A DNA stretch of 32,632 bases from Verrucomicrobiales bacterium (GTDB lineage Bacteria; Verrucomicrobiota; Verrucomicrobiia; Verrucomicrobiales; DEV007): assembly GCA_029213065.1 (NCBI GenBank), contig JARGPH010000047.1, forward strand, positions 1 through 32,632. Reading direction: 5' to 3'. The translations under genes and the position numbers were made by a program. Shown here piece by piece: positions 2,858-26,895 of this stretch; within the stretch, counting starts at the first letter, position 1, and each line of letters starts with the position of its first letter. The notes below the pieces were generated by a model. It did not search any database and was not told where the DNA came from. It worked only from the letters and a program-made list of their open reading frames with translations.

Positions 2858-4375
2858 ATGAATCCTATGAAATCCCCCCGTATTGTCTATCTGGTCGCTC
2901 TGGGCATAATCTCCTTCTGTCAGTTCTCCGTTTCAGCAGAGAAGCCGAACATCCTCTGGATTTTTTCGGAAGACCTTTCCCCCTACATGGGATGCTACGA
3001 CGACCCGGTCAATGCAGGGCACACACCGTCGATTGATCAACTAGCTGCTGAAGGTGTTCTCTTCAAACGCGCCTACATGCCGGCTCCGGTCTGTTCTGCC
3101 TGCCGCTCGGCCATTATCACCGGAGTGATGCAAACGAGCACAGGCGCTCATCAACATCGATCGGGTCGGGCACCGGCGGGCATCGTTCCGGAAGACACTC
3201 AGATTCGTTTGCCTGAGGGGGTGAAGACAATTCCGGAACTGATGCGGGAGGCGGGCTATTTCACCTTCAACAGTGGTAAGGACGATTACAATTTTCACTA
3301 CGACCGTCGCAAACTCTATTCGGTCGGGACCAAGGAGGACTACGAGCCGGGGATGAACGGTTGGCAGGGGAATTTCGCCCGTCATTCAGGCTCGTTTACC
3401 GAGGACACCTGGAACGCACGTGAAGACAAGAGTCAGCCCTGGTTCGGTCAGATCATGATCTGGGGCGGCAAGGCAAAGGAGAAGCATGTTAGAGAGGGGG
3501 AGTTGTTGAAAGATGATGAAGTTCCGTTGCCTCCTTATTTTCCAAATACTCCGGCGCATCGGAAGTCATGGACGCAGCATTACAATGCGGCGCGTGGTGC
3601 CGATGCATAGGTCGGCGAGATTCTTGCTCAGTTGGAAAAGGATGGGGAGCTGGAAAACACGATCGTTTTTTTCTTCTCTGACCACGGGAACAATCAGTCG
3701 CTGCGTCACAAGCAATTTTGTTACGAGGGCGGCGTTCATGTTCCCTTGATGATTAAAGGGGATCACCCGGCACTGAAAGCGGGAACGGTGCGGAAGGAGA
3801 TTATCTCGGGACTCGATATTTCCGCCACGACTCTAGCCTTCGGTGGTGCGGAGCGACCGGATTATCTCGATGGTCAGAATCTATTCGGAAATGACTTCGA
3901 GCCCTTGAGCTATGTCATTTCCGCCCGTGATCGCTGTGACTACACGATCGATCGGATCCGCACGGTTCGCAGTGACAAGCTGCGCTATATCAGGAATTTC
4001 TTTCCGGACCGCCCCATGTTGCAGGCGCAGTACCGGGATAAGGCCGCCACGGTCGTTGATCTGCATCGGCTTCATGAGGCGGGCGAACTCACCGAATATC
4101 AGGACAAACACTGGTTCGGGATTCGTCCGAAAGAGGAACTTTACGACATCGCAGCGGATCCCTATCAGATCAATAATCTGGCGGATAACCCGGAGTATGC
4201 TGAGGCTTTGAAAGAACATCGCGAGGTGCTTGACGCGTGGATTAAAGAAACCGACGACAAAGGGCAGTATCCTGAATCGCCGGTTCAGTTGAAAGCCACC
4301 TACGACCTCTGGATCGAGAAGCCTATTTTCAAGAACGCGAAAGTGAATCCCGAGTATGATCAGTTTCGGAACTGA
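2858..4375 (+). pseudogene. Secreted sulfatase interrupted by an in-frame TAG
   Basis: Two open segments in the same frame (2858-3610 and 3632-4375) form one sulfatase of about 505 codons, split only by TAG at 3608-3610 (codon 251). The N-terminal part has a signal peptide, the metal-binding N-I-L-W-I-F-S-E-D-L stretch and the formylglycine motif C79-S-A-C-R followed by S-A-I-I-T-G. The C-terminal part has the D275-H-G-N metal-site motif and the normal sulfatase tail. Nothing else is lost, so this is a single nonsense change or a base error rather than decay. Sulfatases of this type remove sulfate from polysaccharides or glycosaminoglycans outside the cytoplasm. They need a formylglycine-generating enzyme, which is not in this window. 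An AAGGA lies 9 bp before the ATG at 2867, which may be the true start. Confidence 0.82.
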
Positions 4376-19397: not shown

Positions 19398-22300
19398 ATG
19401 TTAAGTAAATACAGCTCCTCACGATGGCTTGCCTGCGCAGCGTTTTTCCTCGGAATTATGCTCACAGGGATGTTCAGCTCTGCCCACGCAAATGCTCCGG
19501 ATTCGAAATTTCTTGTTTTCGAAGGCGAGAGCGGTCCCGGTAAAGGGAAGCATGTCGTGCTCCTCTCCGGTGACGAAGAGTATCGCTCGGAAGAGTCGAT
19601 GCCGATGATGGCGATGGTTCTCGCTGAGCAGGGATTCAAATGCACGGTGCTTTTCTCCCTGAATGACGATGGGACGGTTAACCCTGACAAGGGCGATAAT
19701 CTGAGCCATCCTGAGGCGCTGGATTCGGCTGACCTCCTAATTCTCGGCCTGCGTTTCCGCCACTGGCAGGACGAGGCAATGGAGAAGTTCGAAGCGGCCT
19801 TGAACCGTGGCGTTCCCATGATCGCACTGAGAACATCCACGCATGCGTTCAATACGGACAAAAAAGGCAAGTGGGCCAAATATGGTTGGCAGGCTCCTGC
19901 TGAGTCCGGTTGGGAAAAGGGATTCGGACGTCAGGTCCTCGGTGAAACGTGGGTGAGTCACCACGGGAAACATAAAGTGGAAGGTGCCCGCTCGGTTGTT
20001 GAAGAAGCGAATAAGGAGAACCCGATCCTCAACGGAGTGGGAACGATTTTTGCGACGTCGGATGTCTACGGTGCCGATCCGCTTGAGCCGTCGACAATTC
20101 TCCTGCGCGGTGAAGTGACAGAGACGCTCGACTCTGATTCCGCCGGCGTTGCCGCGAAAAACGATCCCATGCAGCCGATCGCCTGGACTCGCGAATACAA
20201 ACACGAGGACGGAACAACGAATAAGATTTTCACAACGACGATGGGTGCCGCGGTTGATCTTCTCGACGAGAGCCTTCGCCGCCTCGTTGTGAATGGTGTT
20301 TTCTGGGGACTGGGAATGGAGGTTCCTGAGAAAGTGGATGTTGCTCTTCCCGCCGGTTACGAGCCTTCCAACTTCAGTTTCAAAGCATATAAAGTGGGGC
20401 TGAAGCCGTTCGATTTTATTCCCGGCTCAGAGAAGTTCAAGAATGCCGAAACGCCGCAAGCGGAGAAGAAACAGGGCGCAGCCAAGGTTAAGAAAGCGAC
20501 CCCGCTCAAAGTGAACGACGGTGATAACATCGTAATCATCGGAGCCGGAATGGCTTCGAGAATGAATCACTTCAATCACTTTGAGACTGAACTGTTTCTC
20601 CGTTTTCCTGACAAAGATATCACGATTCGCAACATGGGCGACGAGGGGAATACTCCCGGCTTTCGTCCGCATCCCGGTCGTAACTACGAAGAGCAGTATG
20701 CGTTCCCCGGTGCAAAGGAGCTTCTTCGCAAAGAGCTTCAGACCAATACGAAGCCACAGGGCCATTTTGAAACACCTGACCAGTGGCTGACCCGCCTCAA
20801 AGCGGACACGATTCTCGCCTTCTTCGGATTCAACTCTTCGTTCGAAGGTCCTGAGGGCGTCGAGCGTTACAAGAAGGAACTCGATGCTTTTTTGAAGCAC
20901 ACCGCCGCTCAGAAATACAACGGCAAGAGCGCGCCGCAAATCGCACTGGTCTCGCCGACGGCGTTTCAGGATCTTTCTGCGCAGTATGACACTCCGGATG
21001 GTGTCGAAGAGAATAAGAATCTCAAGCTCTACACGGACGCTTCCAGTGAAGTGGCCGCGGCAAACGGTGTCCTCTTTGTAGATGCTTTTACGCCAACTCT
21101 GGCCTGGTATTCAGGTGCTAACGAATACACCATCGACGGAGCACTGTTTAATGACGCCGGCTATGAGAAGCTCGCGCCGGTGATCGCTGACGCCGCTTTT
21201 GGAAAGGGAAAAGTCGACGAGGACAAACGCTCTGTCGTTCATTCCGCCGTTGAGGAAAAGAACTGGTCATGGCTCAATGATTTCAAAGTCCCGAACGGAG
21301 TTCACGTCTACGGACGTCGTTACAACCCCTACGGTCCTGACAACTACCCGCACGAGCTCAAGAAGACCCGCGAATATACTGTAATTCGTGATCAGGCGAT
21401 CTGGGCGCGTTTGAAAGATGAGCCGTTTGATGTCGTTGCGAAGGATGCGCAGACTTACGTGCTTCCTCCGGTGGAGACGAACTACGTTCCGAGCGTGAAG
21501 AACGGTTCGGTTGAATATCGTCCCGGAAAAGAGGTCGAATCCCAGCTAACCACCGCTGATGGATACAAGATTGAGCTTTTCGCTTCCGAAGAGCAGTTCC
21601 CATCACTCGCGAATCCTGTTCAGCTTTCGTTTGATAACAAAGGTCGGCTCTGGGTTGCGACGATGGAGAGCTATCCGCACTACCGGATCGGCGATCCACT
21701 TCCTCAGGATAAGCTCCTCATTCTCGAAGATACCGATGGTGACGGCAAATCCGACAAAGAGACCGCGTTCGCAGATGATCTTCACATTCCTATCGGTTTC
21801 GAGATCGCTCACGATGGCGTTTATGTTTCCCAAAGTGGCAGCCTTGTTTTCCTGCAGGACACCAACGGCGATGACAAATATGATACGCGCGAGGTGCTCA
21901 TGAGTGGATTTGACGATCATGACACCCACCACGCGATTTCCGCTTTCTGTGCGGATCCAAGCGGTGCGATTATGATGGGGGAAGGGGTTTTCCTCCATAC
22001 CCATGTTGAGACTGCCTACGGTCCGGTTCGCGGGAGTAACGGTGGCTTTGATCGCTATTCCCCACGGAATAAAAAGTTGATCCGCTACGCGCAGTTCAAC
22101 ATTCCCAATCCATGGGGAATCGCTTTCGATGACTATGGACAGGACTTTTTCCTTCACACTTCCGGCACGAGCCTTTCCTGGATGATGCCGGGTTCGGTGA
22201 AGCCTGTTTATGGCGTGAACATGAAGGCTCCTGACATTATCACTGATCAGTCGGTCCGTCCGACTTCCGGACTTGAGTTTGTCTCGAGCCGTCACTTTCC

Positions 22301-23567
22301 GGATGAGGTTCAAGGCGATATTCTTCTGACAAATGCGATCGGCTATCTGGGGGCGAAGCAGCACGAGGTCATTGAAGACGGCACCGGATTCACCACCAAG
22401 TTCCGTCAGGACCTTTTCTTTTCGAAAGACCTTAACTTCCGTCCTGTTGACATCGAGTTTGCTCCCGACGGATCGCTCTACGTGGTCGATTGGCACAATG
22501 CTCTCATCGGTCACATGCAGCACAGCGCCCGTGATCCGCTTCGCGACCACGTGCACGGTCGTATCTACCGCGTCACCTACCCGTCCCGTCCGCTGGTTGA
22601 GCCGGCAAAAATTGACGGAGAAAGCATTGAGCACCTTCTCGAAAATCTGAAACTGCACGAGTATCGTTCACGTTACCGCACTCGCAGAGAGCTCCGTGGA
22701 CGCGATGCGAACGCTGTCGTTGCCGCAGTCGAGAAATGGGTGCCGACTCTTAAAGATGACAGACACAAGCTCGAAGCTCTCTGGGTGACCTGGGGCATTA
22801 ATCGCGTCGATGTTGATCTGTTGAAGACGCTTCTGAAATCGGAGGATCATAAGGTCCGTGCCGGTGCCACTCGCGTCCTTCGATTCAATGAGGATAAAGT
22901 GGCCGACTATCAGGATCTCATGCTTGCGGCAGCAGGTGACGAGCACGGTCGGGTTCGCCTTGAGGCGATTACGGCTGCTTCATGGGGGGATTCAGAAGAC
23001 GGGCTCGCTATCCTCGCGGTGGCTGAAGCCAAGGGACTCGATAAGTATTCAGAAGATTCCTTCAAAACGGCAAAGGCCGCCCTTTCTCACGAAATTCTTG
23101 AAGACCCTGATAAGAATCTCCGTATTCAGGCTCCGAAACATCTCAAAGGAAAAGACAAAAAGCTCTACATCACGGGAGCCGAAATTTATGCCCGTGAGGC
23201 GCACTGCGGAACCTGTCACCAGGCGAATGGTAAAGGTCTCGATGCTGCTGGATTCCCTCCACTCGATGGCACGAAATGGGTCAATGGCGATTCTGAGCGT
23301 CTCATTAAAGTTGCTCTCAAAGGAGTGATGGGACCGATCGAGGTGAACGGCAAAGCTTATCCCGGCGTGGTTCCGATGACTCCGTTTGAGTACATTCTCA
23401 AGGATGATGAGCTCGCTGCTGTTTTGACTTATGTCAGGAACTCCTGGTCAAATAAAGCCGGCCCGATTTCTGCAAAGGAAGTCGCGAAAGTGAGAGCGGC
23501 GACGAAGGACCAGAAGATGATGTATAACCCCGCTGACCTGCTCAAAGAGCATCCCCATGCTGAGTAA
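19398..23567 (+). CDS. Giant secreted ThuA / SGNH / PVC-type dehydrogenase / cytochrome c fusion protein
   Basis: This 1389-residue protein has a signal peptide ending near A-H-A. A ThuA-like domain (about 48-320) contains V-V-L-L-S-G-D-E-E-Y-R-S-E-E. A degenerate SGNH/GDSL-type domain follows (about 375-600: V-I-I-G-A-G-M-A-S-R, then F-F-G-F-N-S-S-F). The PVC-type membrane-bound dehydrogenase propeller (about 710-1060) has L-W-V-A-T-M-E-S-Y-P and D-T-D-G-D-G-K-S-D, a calcium-loop-like stretch. HEAT-like helical repeats occupy about 1085-1215. A C-terminal cytochrome c domain has C1270-G-T-C-H1274, with P-M-T-P-F as the likely distal Met. Such proteins are hallmark Planctomycetes/Verrucomicrobia periplasmic redox enzymes, probably acting on sugars or sugar derivatives. 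The substrate is unknown. It stands alone and ends in a strong terminator. Confidence 0.9.
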   Translation: MLSKYSSSRWLACAAFFLGIMLTGMFSSAHANAPDSKFLVFEGESGPGKGKHVVLLSGDEEYRSEESMPMMAMVLAEQGFKCTVLFSLNDDGTVNPDKGDNLSHPEALDSADLLILGLRFRHWQDEAMEKFEAALNRGVPMIALRTSTHAFNTDKKGKWAKYGWQAPAESGWEKGFGRQVLGETWVSHHGKHKVEGARSVVEEANKENPILNGVGTIFATSDVYGADPLEPSTILLRGEVTETLDSDSAGVAAKNDPMQPIAWTREYKHEDGTTNKIFTTTMGAAVDLLDESLRRLVVNGVFWGLGMEVPEKVDVALPAGYEPSNFSFKAYKVGLKPFDFIPGSEKFKNAETPQAEKKQGAAKVKKATPLKVNDGDNIVIIGAGMASRMNHFNHFETELFLRFPDKDITIRNMGDEGNTPGFRPHPGRNYEEQYAFPGAKELLRKELQTNTKPQGHFETPDQWLTRLKADTILAFFGFNSSFEGPEGVERYKKELDAFLKHTAAQKYNGKSAPQIALVSPTAFQDLSAQYDTPDGVEENKNLKLYTDASSEVAAANGVLFVDAFTPTLAWYSGANEYTIDGALFNDAGYEKLAPVIADAAFGKGKVDEDKRSVVHSAVEEKNWSWLNDFKVPNGVHVYGRRYNPYGPDNYPHELKKTREYTVIRDQAIWARLKDEPFDVVAKDAQTYVLPPVETNYVPSVKNGSVEYRPGKEVESQLTTADGYKIELFASEEQFPSLANPVQLSFDNKGRLWVATMESYPHYRIGDPLPQDKLLILEDTDGDGKSDKETAFADDLHIPIGFEIAHDGVYVSQSGSLVFLQDTNGDDKYDTREVLMSGFDDHDTHHAISAFCADPSGAIMMGEGVFLHTHVETAYGPVRGSNGGFDRYSPRNKKLIRYAQFNIPNPWGIAFDDYGQDFFLHTSGTSLSWMMPGSVKPVYGVNMKAPDIITDQSVRPTSGLEFVSSRHFPDEVQGDILLTNAIGYLGAKQHEVIEDGTGFTTKFRQDLFFSKDLNFRPVDIEFAPDGSLYVVDWHNALIGHMQHSARDPLRDHVHGRIYRVTYPSRPLVEPAKIDGESIEHLLENLKLHEYRSRYRTRRELRGRDANAVVAAVEKWVPTLKDDRHKLEALWVTWGINRVDVDLLKTLLKSEDHKVRAGATRVLRFNEDKVADYQDLMLAAAGDEHGRVRLEAITAASWGDSEDGLAILAVAEAKGLDKYSEDSFKTAKAALSHEILEDPDKNLRIQAPKHLKGKDKKLYITGAEIYAREAHCGTCHQANGKGLDAAGFPPLDGTKWVNGDSERLIKVALKGVMGPIEVNGKAYPGVVPMTPFEYILKDDELAAVLTYVRNSWSNKAGPISAKEVAKVRAATKDQKMMYNPADLLKEHPHAE

Positions 23568-23597
23568 TACGTTGCGATAATTAACTTCACACCTTTG

Positions 23598-23639
23598 AAA
23601 AGGGTATCTATCATCCGCGGGATGAAGATACCCTTTTTT
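23598..23639 (+). terminator. Intrinsic terminator or attenuator overlapping the selenoprotein start codon
   Basis: Arms 23598-23616 and 23620-23637 pair over 18 bp with a single bulged A (23610) and a GCG loop, followed by a T6 run (23634-23639) partly inside the 3' arm. It lies 31 bp after the stop of the 1389-residue gene, so it should end that transcript. The ATG of the next gene (23622-23624) is inside the 3' arm. Confidence 0.75.
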
Positions 23640-24941
23640 GTGGCCCTTGCCGTCGCGCTGCCCTTCGTCACAGTGCCGTTGCTGCTCGCTGCGGATTCGA
23701 AGCAGTCCCGCGATGAAATGGTGCTGGAGGATCGTGCTGAGCTAATCGGGAACGACACCTGGATTTACAACGATCTGGAGAAAGCCAAAGCGGTTGCGAA
23801 GGCGGCGAACAAGCCGCTCATGATTGTCTTCCGGTGTATCCCGTGAAGCGCGTGCAGCGAGTTCGACGAGCAGGTTGTTCGTCGCGATGATACGATTGAT
23901 GACCTGATGGACGAGTTCGTCTGTCTGCGGATCATCCAAATGAATGGAGTGGATCTATCACTCTTTCAGTTCGACTATGACATGTCGTTCGCGGTGTTTT
24001 TCATGAATGCCGATGAGACGATTTACGGGCGCTACGGGACACGCTCGGATCGCTCAGATCATGCGGATCGCCACATTTCGATGGAGGGGCTCAAAGCCTC
24101 GATGGAGGGCGCTCTGGATTTGCATCGACGTTATCCTGAGGTTGCCTCGAGCCTCGAGGACAAGCGGGGCGCCGAGCCTCGCTACGAACGGGCGGAGCTG
24201 TATCCGGAGCTTCAAAACTACACGCCGATGATCAATTATGAAAACGAGACGGCGAAGAGCTGCATTCATTGTCATCAAATTCACAATGCAGAGAGGCAGG
24301 GGCTTCGCGACTCGAACAATCTCATTCCGGATCCTGTCCTCTATTTGTATCCGATGCCCGAAGTGTTCGGTGTGAAACTTGCCACCGAAAGCCGGGCGAC
24401 TCTTTCCGGGGTGCTCCCTGGATCTGCGGCGGCGAAGGCGGGGCTTCAGGCGGGCGACGAATTGCTCAATGTCAAAGGGCAGCCCCTGATTTCCCAGGCC
24501 GATTTGCAGTGGATACTGCAGAATGAGGGTTCCGGTGAAGCCACGCTTCCCATGAAGGTTCGCAGAGATGACGAAACGATATTCGTGGAGGTTGCGCTCG
24601 AAGACGGCTGGAGACGGAAAAGCGATTTCGGCTGGCGCGTCTCGACCTGGGATCTGAGGCGAATGGTGCTGGGCGGGATGGTGCTCGTTTCGGATGAGTC
24701 GGGAAAAGCCGGAGTCGGCCTCACCGTGAAAGGTGCCGGTAAGCACGGTGGCCATGCCGTGGCGCGAAAGGCCGGGGTGCGCGAGGGCGATCTGATTGTT
24801 TCGATCGGAGGAAGGGGCACCCGTGCTACCGAGGCGGAGATTATTGCTTATTTGTTAGAGGAAACCGAAAAGGGTGATGCGATCCCGTTGACGCTGAAAA
24901 GAGGGGCGCGGGAAATCTCAATCCAGTATAAGGCGCAGTAG
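23622..24941 (+). CDS. Trx-like/PDZ selenoprotein (in-frame UGA read as selenocysteine)
   Basis: The frame is open from 23622 to 24941 except for one TGA at 23844-23846. Read as selenocysteine it gives 439 residues: a signal peptide (about 1-24), then a thioredoxin-like domain in which C72-I-P-U75-S-A-C78 takes the place of a CxxC redox site, in the context M-I-V-F-R-C-I-P. A C214-I-H-C217-H218 heme-type motif follows, then two PDZ domains (about 250-330 and 345-435). This is the order of the PVC family annotated as Trx7/PDZ (seleno)protein. A SECIS-like hairpin stands right after the UGA, and the downstream frame is clean, so decay is unlikely. I infer a periplasmic thiol/selenol oxidoreductase. 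selA, selB and selC must lie elsewhere. An in-frame TTG at 23595 is an alternative start. Confidence 0.88.
23844..23884 (+). promoter_or_regulatory. UGA codon plus bacterial SECIS-like hairpin
   Basis: After the UGA (23844-23846), bases 23864-23871 (CGACGAGC) pair with 23877-23884 (GTTCGTCG), giving an 8-bp stem with one G-U pair. The loop is AGGTT, starting 26 nt after the UGA. Bacterial SECIS elements have an apical loop with a G in its first two positions at this distance. The tip GC-AGGTT-GT closely resembles the GC-AGGTCT-GC tip of E. coli fdhF, which binds SelB. Confidence 0.75.
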
Positions 24942-24963: not shown

Positions 24964-26895
24964 TCAGTAGGCTTTCGTCGCTTTCTCCTTTTGGATGACC
25001 GGTTCGTTTCTCGGATCCGGTTCGGCGAGATCGATCAGTCGGAAGGCTTCGATCTGATTGGAGAAGCCTTTCAGAGTTAAGTCAGAGATCGCTTCTGTCG
25101 TCGGGGCGGGGGATATTTGATCGATCGTGGCCCCGTCGGTAACGATCTCACCGCTCTCCGCCACGGTGCAGAGCCTCGCTGCGAGGTTCACCTTCGCCCC
25201 GAGGACGGTGTAGTTCAGCCGGTCTGTCGAACCCATGCATCCGGCGACGACTTCGCCTGAGGCAATTCCCACCCCGATTTCAATGGGGACCTTGAGGTCG
25301 CGGTTGAGGCGTTCGCGTTCGGCGATCATTTCGCGGGCACAGGCTGCGGCATAGTGAGCGTCGTTGCCGTGCGATTTCAGTGCGCCGAATACCGCCATGA
25401 TTTCGTCACCGACGAATTTGTCGACGACACCGTAGTAGCTTCGAACCACTTTCGTCATCGCCGTCATGTGATCGTTGAGCAGTTCAATCACCGCTCCGGG
25501 ATGCATGTTCTCCGTGAGCTCGGTGAAGCCCCGAATGTCGCAGAACAAGATCGATACGTCCTTGATTTCGCCGCCCAGCTCGAGGTCGAGGGTTCCACTG
25601 ATCATTGCCTGAGCGACACTCTCGTCGCTGACTTTCCCGAGCAGTTCACGGAAGACGGCCTTTTGTTTGAGCTGGTCCACCATCTGGTTGAACGACTCTG
25701 TCAACTCTCCGAGCTCGTCCTTCGATTTGACCTCTAGGTGACAGTCAAGATTGCCCTCGCGTATCGCTTTGGTTCCTTTCGACAGCTCGTTGATCGGGCC
25801 GGCAAGGTTGCGAGCGAGAAAGAATGCGAGCGTTCCGCCGAGGAGAAGGGCGAGCGCTCCGATCCCGCTTCCTCTCAGCCGGAGGTCATTGAGATCGGCA
25901 ATGAGATTCGTCATCGGAAAAGCCGCGACCTGATAAACGGTCTGAGGGCTCGACTCTTCGTTCAGCTTCTCAAGGTAAAAGAGATAGGGCTTATTGAACA
26001 TATCATGCTCAATCTTCATGGACGCCGGCTTCTCCTCCGTGTCGCTCAGGATCGTTTCAACCACTCTCGCGATGGCTTTGGCTTGCTTGATTTGAAGGCC
26101 TCTCCCGAAGACCTGTCCATCGAGATAAATACCGCTTTTGAGCCGCTCTTCGCTTTCAAACTCCGATTGATAACGTTCGAGGGACCGCTCCGCTTCCGAC
26201 TCCACCGAAGTCGAGCGAAGAAAGCGACCTATTTGCTCCCCCGTGTCGGGCGAAACCACCGGAGTGCTGACCATTTCGATGACATGCTCCCGCCCGTCAG
26301 GGGTTTCCACGGGGATGTAGAGAGAGTGGTGGCTGCTGCTCTTGAGGATCGCATTGAAGCGTTCTTTGTTACCCTCCGCGATGCGCTCGATCCGCTGGGA
26401 GAGCTTTCGGCGCCTCGAACCCTCGTCATCCCGTGCCAACTGAGTGATGTTCCCGTCGGTGTCGATGACGGCGACGAAGCCAACGCGGGTTTCCATTTCG
26501 CCGGCGCCGGGAAATGGCCGCGGTAGGCCCTCTTTTCCTCCCGACAGGGGCTTTGGCGGTATCGCTCCCTGGCCGCCGCGGTCCCGCATCATCATGCTTT
26601 CCCGATAGTAATTCCAGAAAGCCGCCGTCTCGCTTTTTGAGGGCTTGCCTGTAATCGACTCGATTACAGCCGGCATTCTGGCAAGTTCACTTGAGAGCGC
26701 GGTGAACTCTTCCGCTCCTTCCATTCGCGAGTGATTGAGGGTATCGACGAGGTTATCAAACTCCTCCGAGAACTCCCTTGTGTAGGCATTTTTGACTTTC
26801 GCCGACGTCGCCGTGAGAAGCGCCACGGTGACAATCGCGATCATGAAGATCATTGAGAGGATTAGTTTGGTTTGAAATCGCAGACCGGGCTTCAT
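24964..26895 (-). CDS. Membrane-bound class III adenylate/guanylate cyclase with HAMP domain
   Basis: This 643-residue protein has an N-terminal membrane helix (about 10-30), an extracytoplasmic sensor region of about 310 residues, a second helix (about 344-362) and a HAMP domain (about 363-412). The C-terminal cyclase domain runs from about 440 to 620. Metal-binding Asp residues are in F-C-D453-I-R-G-F-T and G-D497-E. Base-selecting positions are Lys493 (D-K-F-V-G-D) and Thr563 (N-Y-T-V-L-G), which favour ATP, and N570/R574 of N-L-A-A-R are present. It should make cAMP in response to an external cue. The sensor resembles no family I can name; a Cache-type fold is possible. It converges on the selenoprotein gene, with 22 bp between the stops. 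Confidence 0.92.
   Translation of the reverse strand: MKPGLRFQTKLILSMIFMIAIVTVALLTATSAKVKNAYTREFSEEFDNLVDTLNHSRMEGAEEFTALSSELARMPAVIESITGKPSKSETAAFWNYYRESMMMRDRGGQGAIPPKPLSGGKEGLPRPFPGAGEMETRVGFVAVIDTDGNITQLARDDEGSRRRKLSQRIERIAEGNKERFNAILKSSSHHSLYIPVETPDGREHVIEMVSTPVVSPDTGEQIGRFLRSTSVESEAERSLERYQSEFESEERLKSGIYLDGQVFGRGLQIKQAKAIARVVETILSDTEEKPASMKIEHDMFNKPYLFYLEKLNEESSPQTVYQVAAFPMTNLIADLNDLRLRGSGIGALALLLGGTLAFFLARNLAGPINELSKGTKAIREGNLDCHLEVKSKDELGELTESFNQMVDQLKQKAVFRELLGKVSDESVAQAMISGTLDLELGGEIKDVSILFCDIRGFTELTENMHPGAVIELLNDHMTAMTKVVRSYYGVVDKFVGDEIMAVFGALKSHGNDAHYAAACAREMIAERERLNRDLKVPIEIGVGIASGEVVAGCMGSTDRLNYTVLGAKVNLAARLCTVAESGEIVTDGATIDQISPAPTTEAISDLTLKGFSNQIEAFRLIDLAEPDPRNEPVIQKEKATKAY

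Follow-up and report, generated by a model that had tools for sequence, protein, structure and literature searches.

Within a window of 32,632 nt from the genome of a Verrucomicrobiales bacterium (the whole stretch of DNA that was analysed), we identified a gene that, on comparative sequence evidence, is a genuine SECIS-decoded selenoprotein gene of the known Trx7/PDZ family, with predicted selenium incorporation at an in-frame TGA. The encoded protein almost certainly contains selenocysteine (Sec). The gene forms a single frame of 439 residues on the forward strand, from the ATG at 23622 to the TAG at 24939-24941, with one in-frame TGA (Table 1). As the preliminary description of this DNA had it, an ordinary list of open reading frames splits the gene into 23595-23846 (83 residues and a stop, with a TTG start) and 23907-24941 (344 residues), yet both halves lie in one frame and are joined by the TGA within C72-I-P-U75-S-A-C78. 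A standard ORF caller thus cuts the gene in two, and the catalytic half is lost. Pfam recognises a Thioredoxin_7 domain and two PDZ stretches, with a CxxCH motif in between, in the order previously described. The protein is presumably exported; residues 1-31, which include the probable signal peptide, have pLDDT values below 50 in the AlphaFold model.

The window protein matches NCBIfam NF041199 with 387.7 bits (cut-off 300) over positions 2-389 of 390. It had been described as unannotated-looking, a view that does not hold: the family is already annotated and has been in print since 2008. In the available part of their paper, Zhang and Gladyshev (2008; PMC2398784) count 2 Sec and 12 Cys sequences of a “putative secreted serine protease MucD”, for which they give a CxxU motif and predict a SECIS element. 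The accessible portion of a 2022 review (PMC9312934) gives a “PDZ domain-containing protein” with pfam13899 and CxxU, and that of a 2026 review (PMC13188914), which cites the 2008 paper, equates NF041199 with Trx7/PDZ and enters it as “CxxU 1”, where we take “1” to mean one Sec. Among the openly available papers searched, NF041199 occurs by name in the 2026 review only, PDZ goes unmentioned in the available main text of a paper on planctomycete selenoproteins (PMC4807772), and no functional study of the Trx7/PDZ family was found in openly available literature. The window member is ordinary for its family, with which it shares the CxPU motif; TGA and Cys forms are both known in the family. The family is already known; what is added here is a displaced redox pair, UxxU forms, the conservation of a heme motif and DsbD-like tails.

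Table 1. Features of the Trx7/PDZ selenoprotein gene (positions in the window). A1 is an alignment of 35 HMM-found rows; A5 is an alignment of 42 rows, the window protein and 41 of its best 80 homologues.
Feature	Position	Strand	Evidence
Trx7/PDZ selenoprotein gene, TGA read through	23622..24941	+	439 residues and TAG; NF041199, 387.7 bits
Probable signal peptide, about residues 1-23	23622..23690	+	By eye
Thioredoxin_7 domain, residues 47-130	23760..24011	+	Pfam PF13899, E 2.1e-13; structural match to 3f9u_A
Cys72 codon, extra upstream redox Cys	23835..23837	+	C in 35/35 (A1) and 42/42 (A5) rows, Sec shown as C
TGA, predicted Sec75 codon	23844..23846	+	Of the best 80 homologues, 15 have TGA here and 65 a Cys codon
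Cys78 codon, classical resolving position	23853..23855	+	Column counts in A1 and A5
Bacterial SECIS-type hairpin, 8 bp, AGGTT loop	23864..23884	+	Pairing and covariation
His168 codon, candidate distal heme ligand	24123..24125	+	35/35 (A1) and 41/42 (A5) rows; putative ligand
CIHCH, putative c-type heme attachment motif, residues 214-218	24261..24275	+	Conservation
PDZ 1, residues 249-313	24366..24560	+	Best stretch of Pfam PF00595; HtrA-type PDZ structural matches
PDZ 2, about residues 348-439	24663..24938	+	HtrA/DegS-type structural matches over 348-439

Selenocysteine codon, insertion element and distribution

The genome to which the window belongs (5.9 Mb in 80 contigs, the window being one of them) was searched for the sel genes, whose absence would have spoken against selenocysteine. 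All of selA, selB, selD and the tRNA-Sec gene (selC) are present, on a single other contig. The tRNA-Sec gene scores 60.6 bits against a gathering score of 47, with a model that was also over its cut-off in five of 14 control genomes, and ARAGORN agrees in calling it tRNA-SeC with anticodon tca. SelB scores 291.8 bits (cut-off 242.25), and selD, just upstream of selA, has an in-frame TGA of its own. At locus L013 (9907-13195), selA is followed by a gene for a putative selenate ABC transporter substrate-binding protein (TIGR04553, 263.2 bits, cut-off 250), and the same stretch encodes an ABC ATPase that is nearest to PhnC but under the PhnC cut-off.

Scanning named genomes with a 15-row alignment gave 382 pattern matches. 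A relative is encoded by 320 of them, and the best 80 were kept. The records carry the labels of Verrucomicrobiota, Kiritimatiellota or Planctomycetota groups, with a few labelled just “bacterium”. In the best 80 of the 320, the codon aligned with the TGA is TGA in 15 and TGC or TGT in 65, and is never any other; unrelated residues at this site are thus not found among them. The family is patchy: counting the window's own genome, 24 of 76 relatives have a match over the cut-off, the remaining matches in those 76 being PDZ proteins, and a sample of 240 genomes across the phylum has four with such a match. Across 74 family genomes there are 33 matches over the cut-off, 15 with one TGA, three with two and 15 with none. 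One genome (G314) alone has five members over the cut-off (L174, L182, L185, L186 and L187), four with a TGA and one with Cys only. Among the 24 genomes over the NF041199 cut-off, selA occurs in eight of the nine that have a TGA form versus three of the 15 with Cys forms only (Fisher p 0.002). The Sec-form genome in which selA was not found (G038) is about 90% complete and in about 720 contigs.

Downstream of the TGA, positions 23864-23871 pair with 23877-23884, leaving the loop AGGTT at 23872-23876. The hairpin had been described correctly as to its eight pairs and its loop, although at 26 nt after the UGA it is the loop that begins and not the stem. We compared it, with no gap allowed after the TGA, between 18 TGA genes (that of the window, 15 of the 80 homologues, L023 and L056) and the 65 Cys genes. 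All eight pairs form in 13 of the 18 TGA genes, and seven or eight in 16, versus a maximum of six pairs in the Cys genes, none of which (0/65) reaches seven. Pairs change on both sides, for example from GC to CG in three rows and from AU to GC, CG or UG in six. The covariation score is 0.366. Shuffled alignments average 0.167, with none of 500 reaching the observed value, and structures slid along the alignment score at most 0.109. The identical structure placed on 18 Cys genes, picked out of the 65 for Sec-form-like residues near the hairpin, gives 0.163 versus 0.154. The apical sequence is GCAGGTTG or ACAGGTTG in 12 of the 18 TGA genes and a close variant in the other six.

Folding energy is less telling. 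The window copy is unexceptional against synonymous codons (z -1.4), and z falls below -2 in one of 18 TGA rows and two of 65 Cys rows, with the TGA rows lower as a group (Mann-Whitney p 0.0004). Since energy is weak on its own, the argument for the hairpin rests on pairing and covariation. Rfam gave no match at gathering level within the window. TGA members found later, and kept outside the 18-gene counts, have eight (L186), seven (L177 and L185) and six (L174) pairs; L178, which has two TGA codons, keeps four of the eight in the common register, with a shifted inner stem of 6 bp predicted. The covariation among the 18 TGA genes and the loss of the structure in Cys homologues together mark the hairpin as a selenocysteine-insertion element.

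The same observations weigh against the TGA being a true stop codon, a mutation or a sequencing error. Broken genes do occur in this window: a sulfatase frame (2858-4375) has an in-frame nonsense codon, a TAG at 3608-3610, and looks broken rather than like a selenocysteine case. In the Trx7/PDZ gene, however, other assemblies have a TGA at this codon too, the hairpin is conserved and covaries, and the Sec pathway is complete. We therefore reject a stop or an error, to which we give next to no chance.

A single ancestry of Sec in the family was also rejected. A tree of 95 rows requires five Sec/Cys changes, at least three of them forced by well-supported branches, and a tree of 45 rows requires eight at position 75; both are quick trees with long-branch warnings (L056 and L185), in which gains and losses look alike.

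Active-site register and members with two TGA codons

Three alignments, each gap-free at the motif, place the predicted Sec within the thioredoxin fold. With the domain profile, residue 75 is matched to the CxxC/CxxS motif of AGR2, at its first Cys (E 3e-8). With a single Cys-form paralogue as the query it falls on the first Cys of the CxxC of 3f9u (E only 0.13), and in a comparison with the gamma domain of the DsbD of the same genome, C75 and C78 coincide with the two Cys of CLTC (E 0.00036, at a probability of only 37%). The agreement of these three modest alignments suggests that Sec75 occupies the usual nucleophile position and Cys78 the usual resolving position, and that Cys72 is extra. 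The TGA had been placed at the redox position, as we also find, in a C-x-x-U motif; that motif is displaced from the classical one by one turn, with Sec at the first, nucleophilic Cys.

Position 72 holds only Cys or Sec in both alignments (Table 1). Position 78 is Cys in 30 and Gly in five of the 35 rows of A1, the latter in one subfamily, and Cys in 42 of 42 rows of A5. Three divergent members from three genus groups have a TGA at both 72 and 75, namely L056/L155 (UESUVDC; L056 1585-2814), L177/L161 (UIPUHAC) and L178/L160 (UAPUGNG), unlike the “CxxU 1” given for NF041199 in the table of the 2026 review, as far as that source is available. The 45-row tree requires three changes at position 72. 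In these members the TGA at 72 is presumably decoded as Sec, like that at 75, and a Sec in place of Cys72 suggests that position 72 is catalytic. In nature this one scaffold comes in Cys-Cys, Cys-Sec and apparently Sec-Sec versions, a ready series for asking what an enzyme gains from selenium.

Heme-type linker, PDZ domains and likeness to DsbD

The preliminary description had placed a CxxCH heme-type motif between the redox domain and the PDZ domains. The motif is there and is conserved, and the heme is what it predicts. C214, C217 and H218 are present in 35/35 rows of A1 and 42/42 of A5, and His168 in all rows but one of A5. The 80 homologous loci were recruited partly by a CxHCH pattern, which makes A1 the less biased count of the heme motif, and all counts were taken from alignment columns (a CxxCH expression can match the redox motif in CxPCH rows). 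To judge from this conservation, the CxxCH and His168 fit a mono-heme c-type site, and we consider it likely that the protein bears heme. VIA-align structural matches list no cytochrome fold for the linker, which bears neither way on heme.

The AlphaFold model, built from the 42-row alignment, has a mean pLDDT of 87.3 and a pTM of 0.85. Residues 45-172 match 3f9u_A, the C-terminal domain of a putative cytochrome c biogenesis-related protein (Z 12.9, rmsd 2.2, 114 aligned), and the PDZ domains match HtrA-type proteases (Z up to 12.7). When solved structures were searched with the full profile, the best 60 of 233 rows covered the PDZ regions; the thioredoxin matches came from the profile of that domain alone, with AGR2 (E 3e-8) and TXNDC12 (4e-5), both Thioredoxin_7 relatives, among the best. 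AGR2 and TXNDC12 are eukaryotic ER proteins that are not known to carry a heme motif or a PDZ domain.

With the gamma (C-terminal) domain of DsbD (PDB 3f9u and 2fwe) the window protein shares the fold and the register of residue 75, but it is without DsbD_TM and adds the invariant Cys72, the heme motif and the PDZ domains. Its Pfam matches up to E 1 include neither DsbD_N nor DsbD_TM, and a complete DsbD (DsbD_N, DsbD_TM and Thioredoxin_7) is encoded in the same genome. The protein is not a DsbD, though it may work like one. Four paralogues (L029, L031, L054 and L055) carry about 170 extra C-terminal residues, in which Pfam finds DsbD_N below gathering level in L054 and L055 (E 0.0011 in both) and in L031 (E 0.0031). 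The tail of the TGA-bearing L185 (1855-2271) is shorter and more distant; Pfam gave no DsbD_N match in the L029 tail and no match at all in that of L185. All five tails have QVCDxxSC in common, and the DsbD_N-like tail is a feature of paralogues only. In DsbD itself electrons pass from the gamma domain to the N-terminal one, and fusion to a DsbD_N-like tail suggests a similar exchange here.

In architecture the closest parallel is MamE. As described in the available text of PMC3971196, MamE combines trypsin, mini-cytochromes and PDZ domains, and MamE and MamP share with the window protein the logic of a catalytic head, a CxxCH mini-cytochrome and PDZ. The parallel is an analogy of layout: the head of the window protein is a thioredoxin and not a trypsin, and the MamE and MamP models matched far below their cut-offs. 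Membership among the magnetochromes (PHx5-9CxxCH) was rejected, as inspection by eye of the window protein found no PH in residues 196-213, before its CxxCH.

Proposed mechanism and its alternatives

We propose, with moderate confidence in the reading as a whole, that the protein is a periplasmic selenol-disulfide oxidoreductase resembling DsbD gamma, with a c-type heme in its linker, client capture by its PDZ domains, a DsbD-like relay and coupling of the heme to cytochromes. This agrees in the main with the earlier view of a periplasmic selenol/heme redox protein, with the heme as the predicted element. The redox centre would be Cys72-Sec75, in which Sec75 would attack as a selenol from the classical nucleophile position and Cys72 would be its resolving partner, with Cys78, where present, assisting or replacing it. 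The linker would bind one c-type heme near this centre, with His218 as the proximal and His168 as a candidate distal ligand. The PDZ pair would capture periplasmic clients by their C-termini or exposed ends, the head would exchange electrons with client disulfides and a DsbD-like relay, and the heme would couple the redox centre to the cytochrome pool. If this is true, the family would connect periplasmic disulfide chemistry directly to the cytochrome pool in Verrucomicrobiota and Planctomycetota.

That the protein is an oxidoreductase of some kind is very probable. Its PDZ pair, shared with HtrA, DegP and DegS and matching proteins of that type, could instead make it an adaptor or a redox switch in periplasmic HtrA-like quality control and not an enzyme. 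This is improbable, as an active-site Sec is usually catalytic and Pfam finds no protease domain, a trypsin-like domain being missing from the matches of the window protein up to E 1. The net direction of electron flow is more finely poised, and we put a reductive, DsbD-like direction at about even chances. The nearness of the thioredoxin domain to DsbD-gamma/AGR2-type domains and the DsbD_N-like tails point to a reductive relay. They count against an outward flow, in which a selenol/thiol oxidase or peroxidase-like enzyme would oxidise thiols and pass the electrons through the heme to respiratory cytochromes. An outward flow would suit a heme motif in the linker adjoining the Sec-bearing domain and a Cys72-x-Pro-Sec75 pair unlike the CxxC of DsbD gamma, but we think it rather unlikely.

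The same Sec/Cys thiol head could also be joined to a heme-free linker, in which CxxCH would form a second dithiol or a metal site serving a thiol relay or redox sensing. The heme is, after all, deduced from a five-residue motif, and the family matches of the window protein, taken up to E 1, include no cytochrome model. Against this stand the invariance of C214, C217 and H218, the near-invariance of His168, and an ORF upstream in the window with a cytochrome c domain, which indicates that the host probably makes c-type cytochromes; a linker free of heme seems to us a doubtful alternative. Keeping to the heme-bearing oxidoreductase, we offer as a tentative extension that it is a heme-wired, PDZ-guided enzyme of the DsbD-gamma type whose redox pair is 72-75 and not 75-78, and that some lineages have repeatedly shifted between Cys-Cys, Cys-Sec and Sec-Sec; the Sec-Sec form would then be a secreted enzyme with a diselenide (UxxU) centre and a c-type heme coupled to it.

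No operon partner was found: the commonest neighbour family within 4 kb occurs in only nine of 81 loci, a count that is lowered by contig ends cutting many loci and that depends on the clustering used. In the window, the ORF upstream of the gene (19398-23567, 1389 residues) combines a weak GDSL-like stretch, DUF7133, HEAT repeats and the cytochrome c domain, and downstream, on the reverse strand (24964-26895), lies a gene for a protein with HAMP and guanylate/adenylate cyclase domains.
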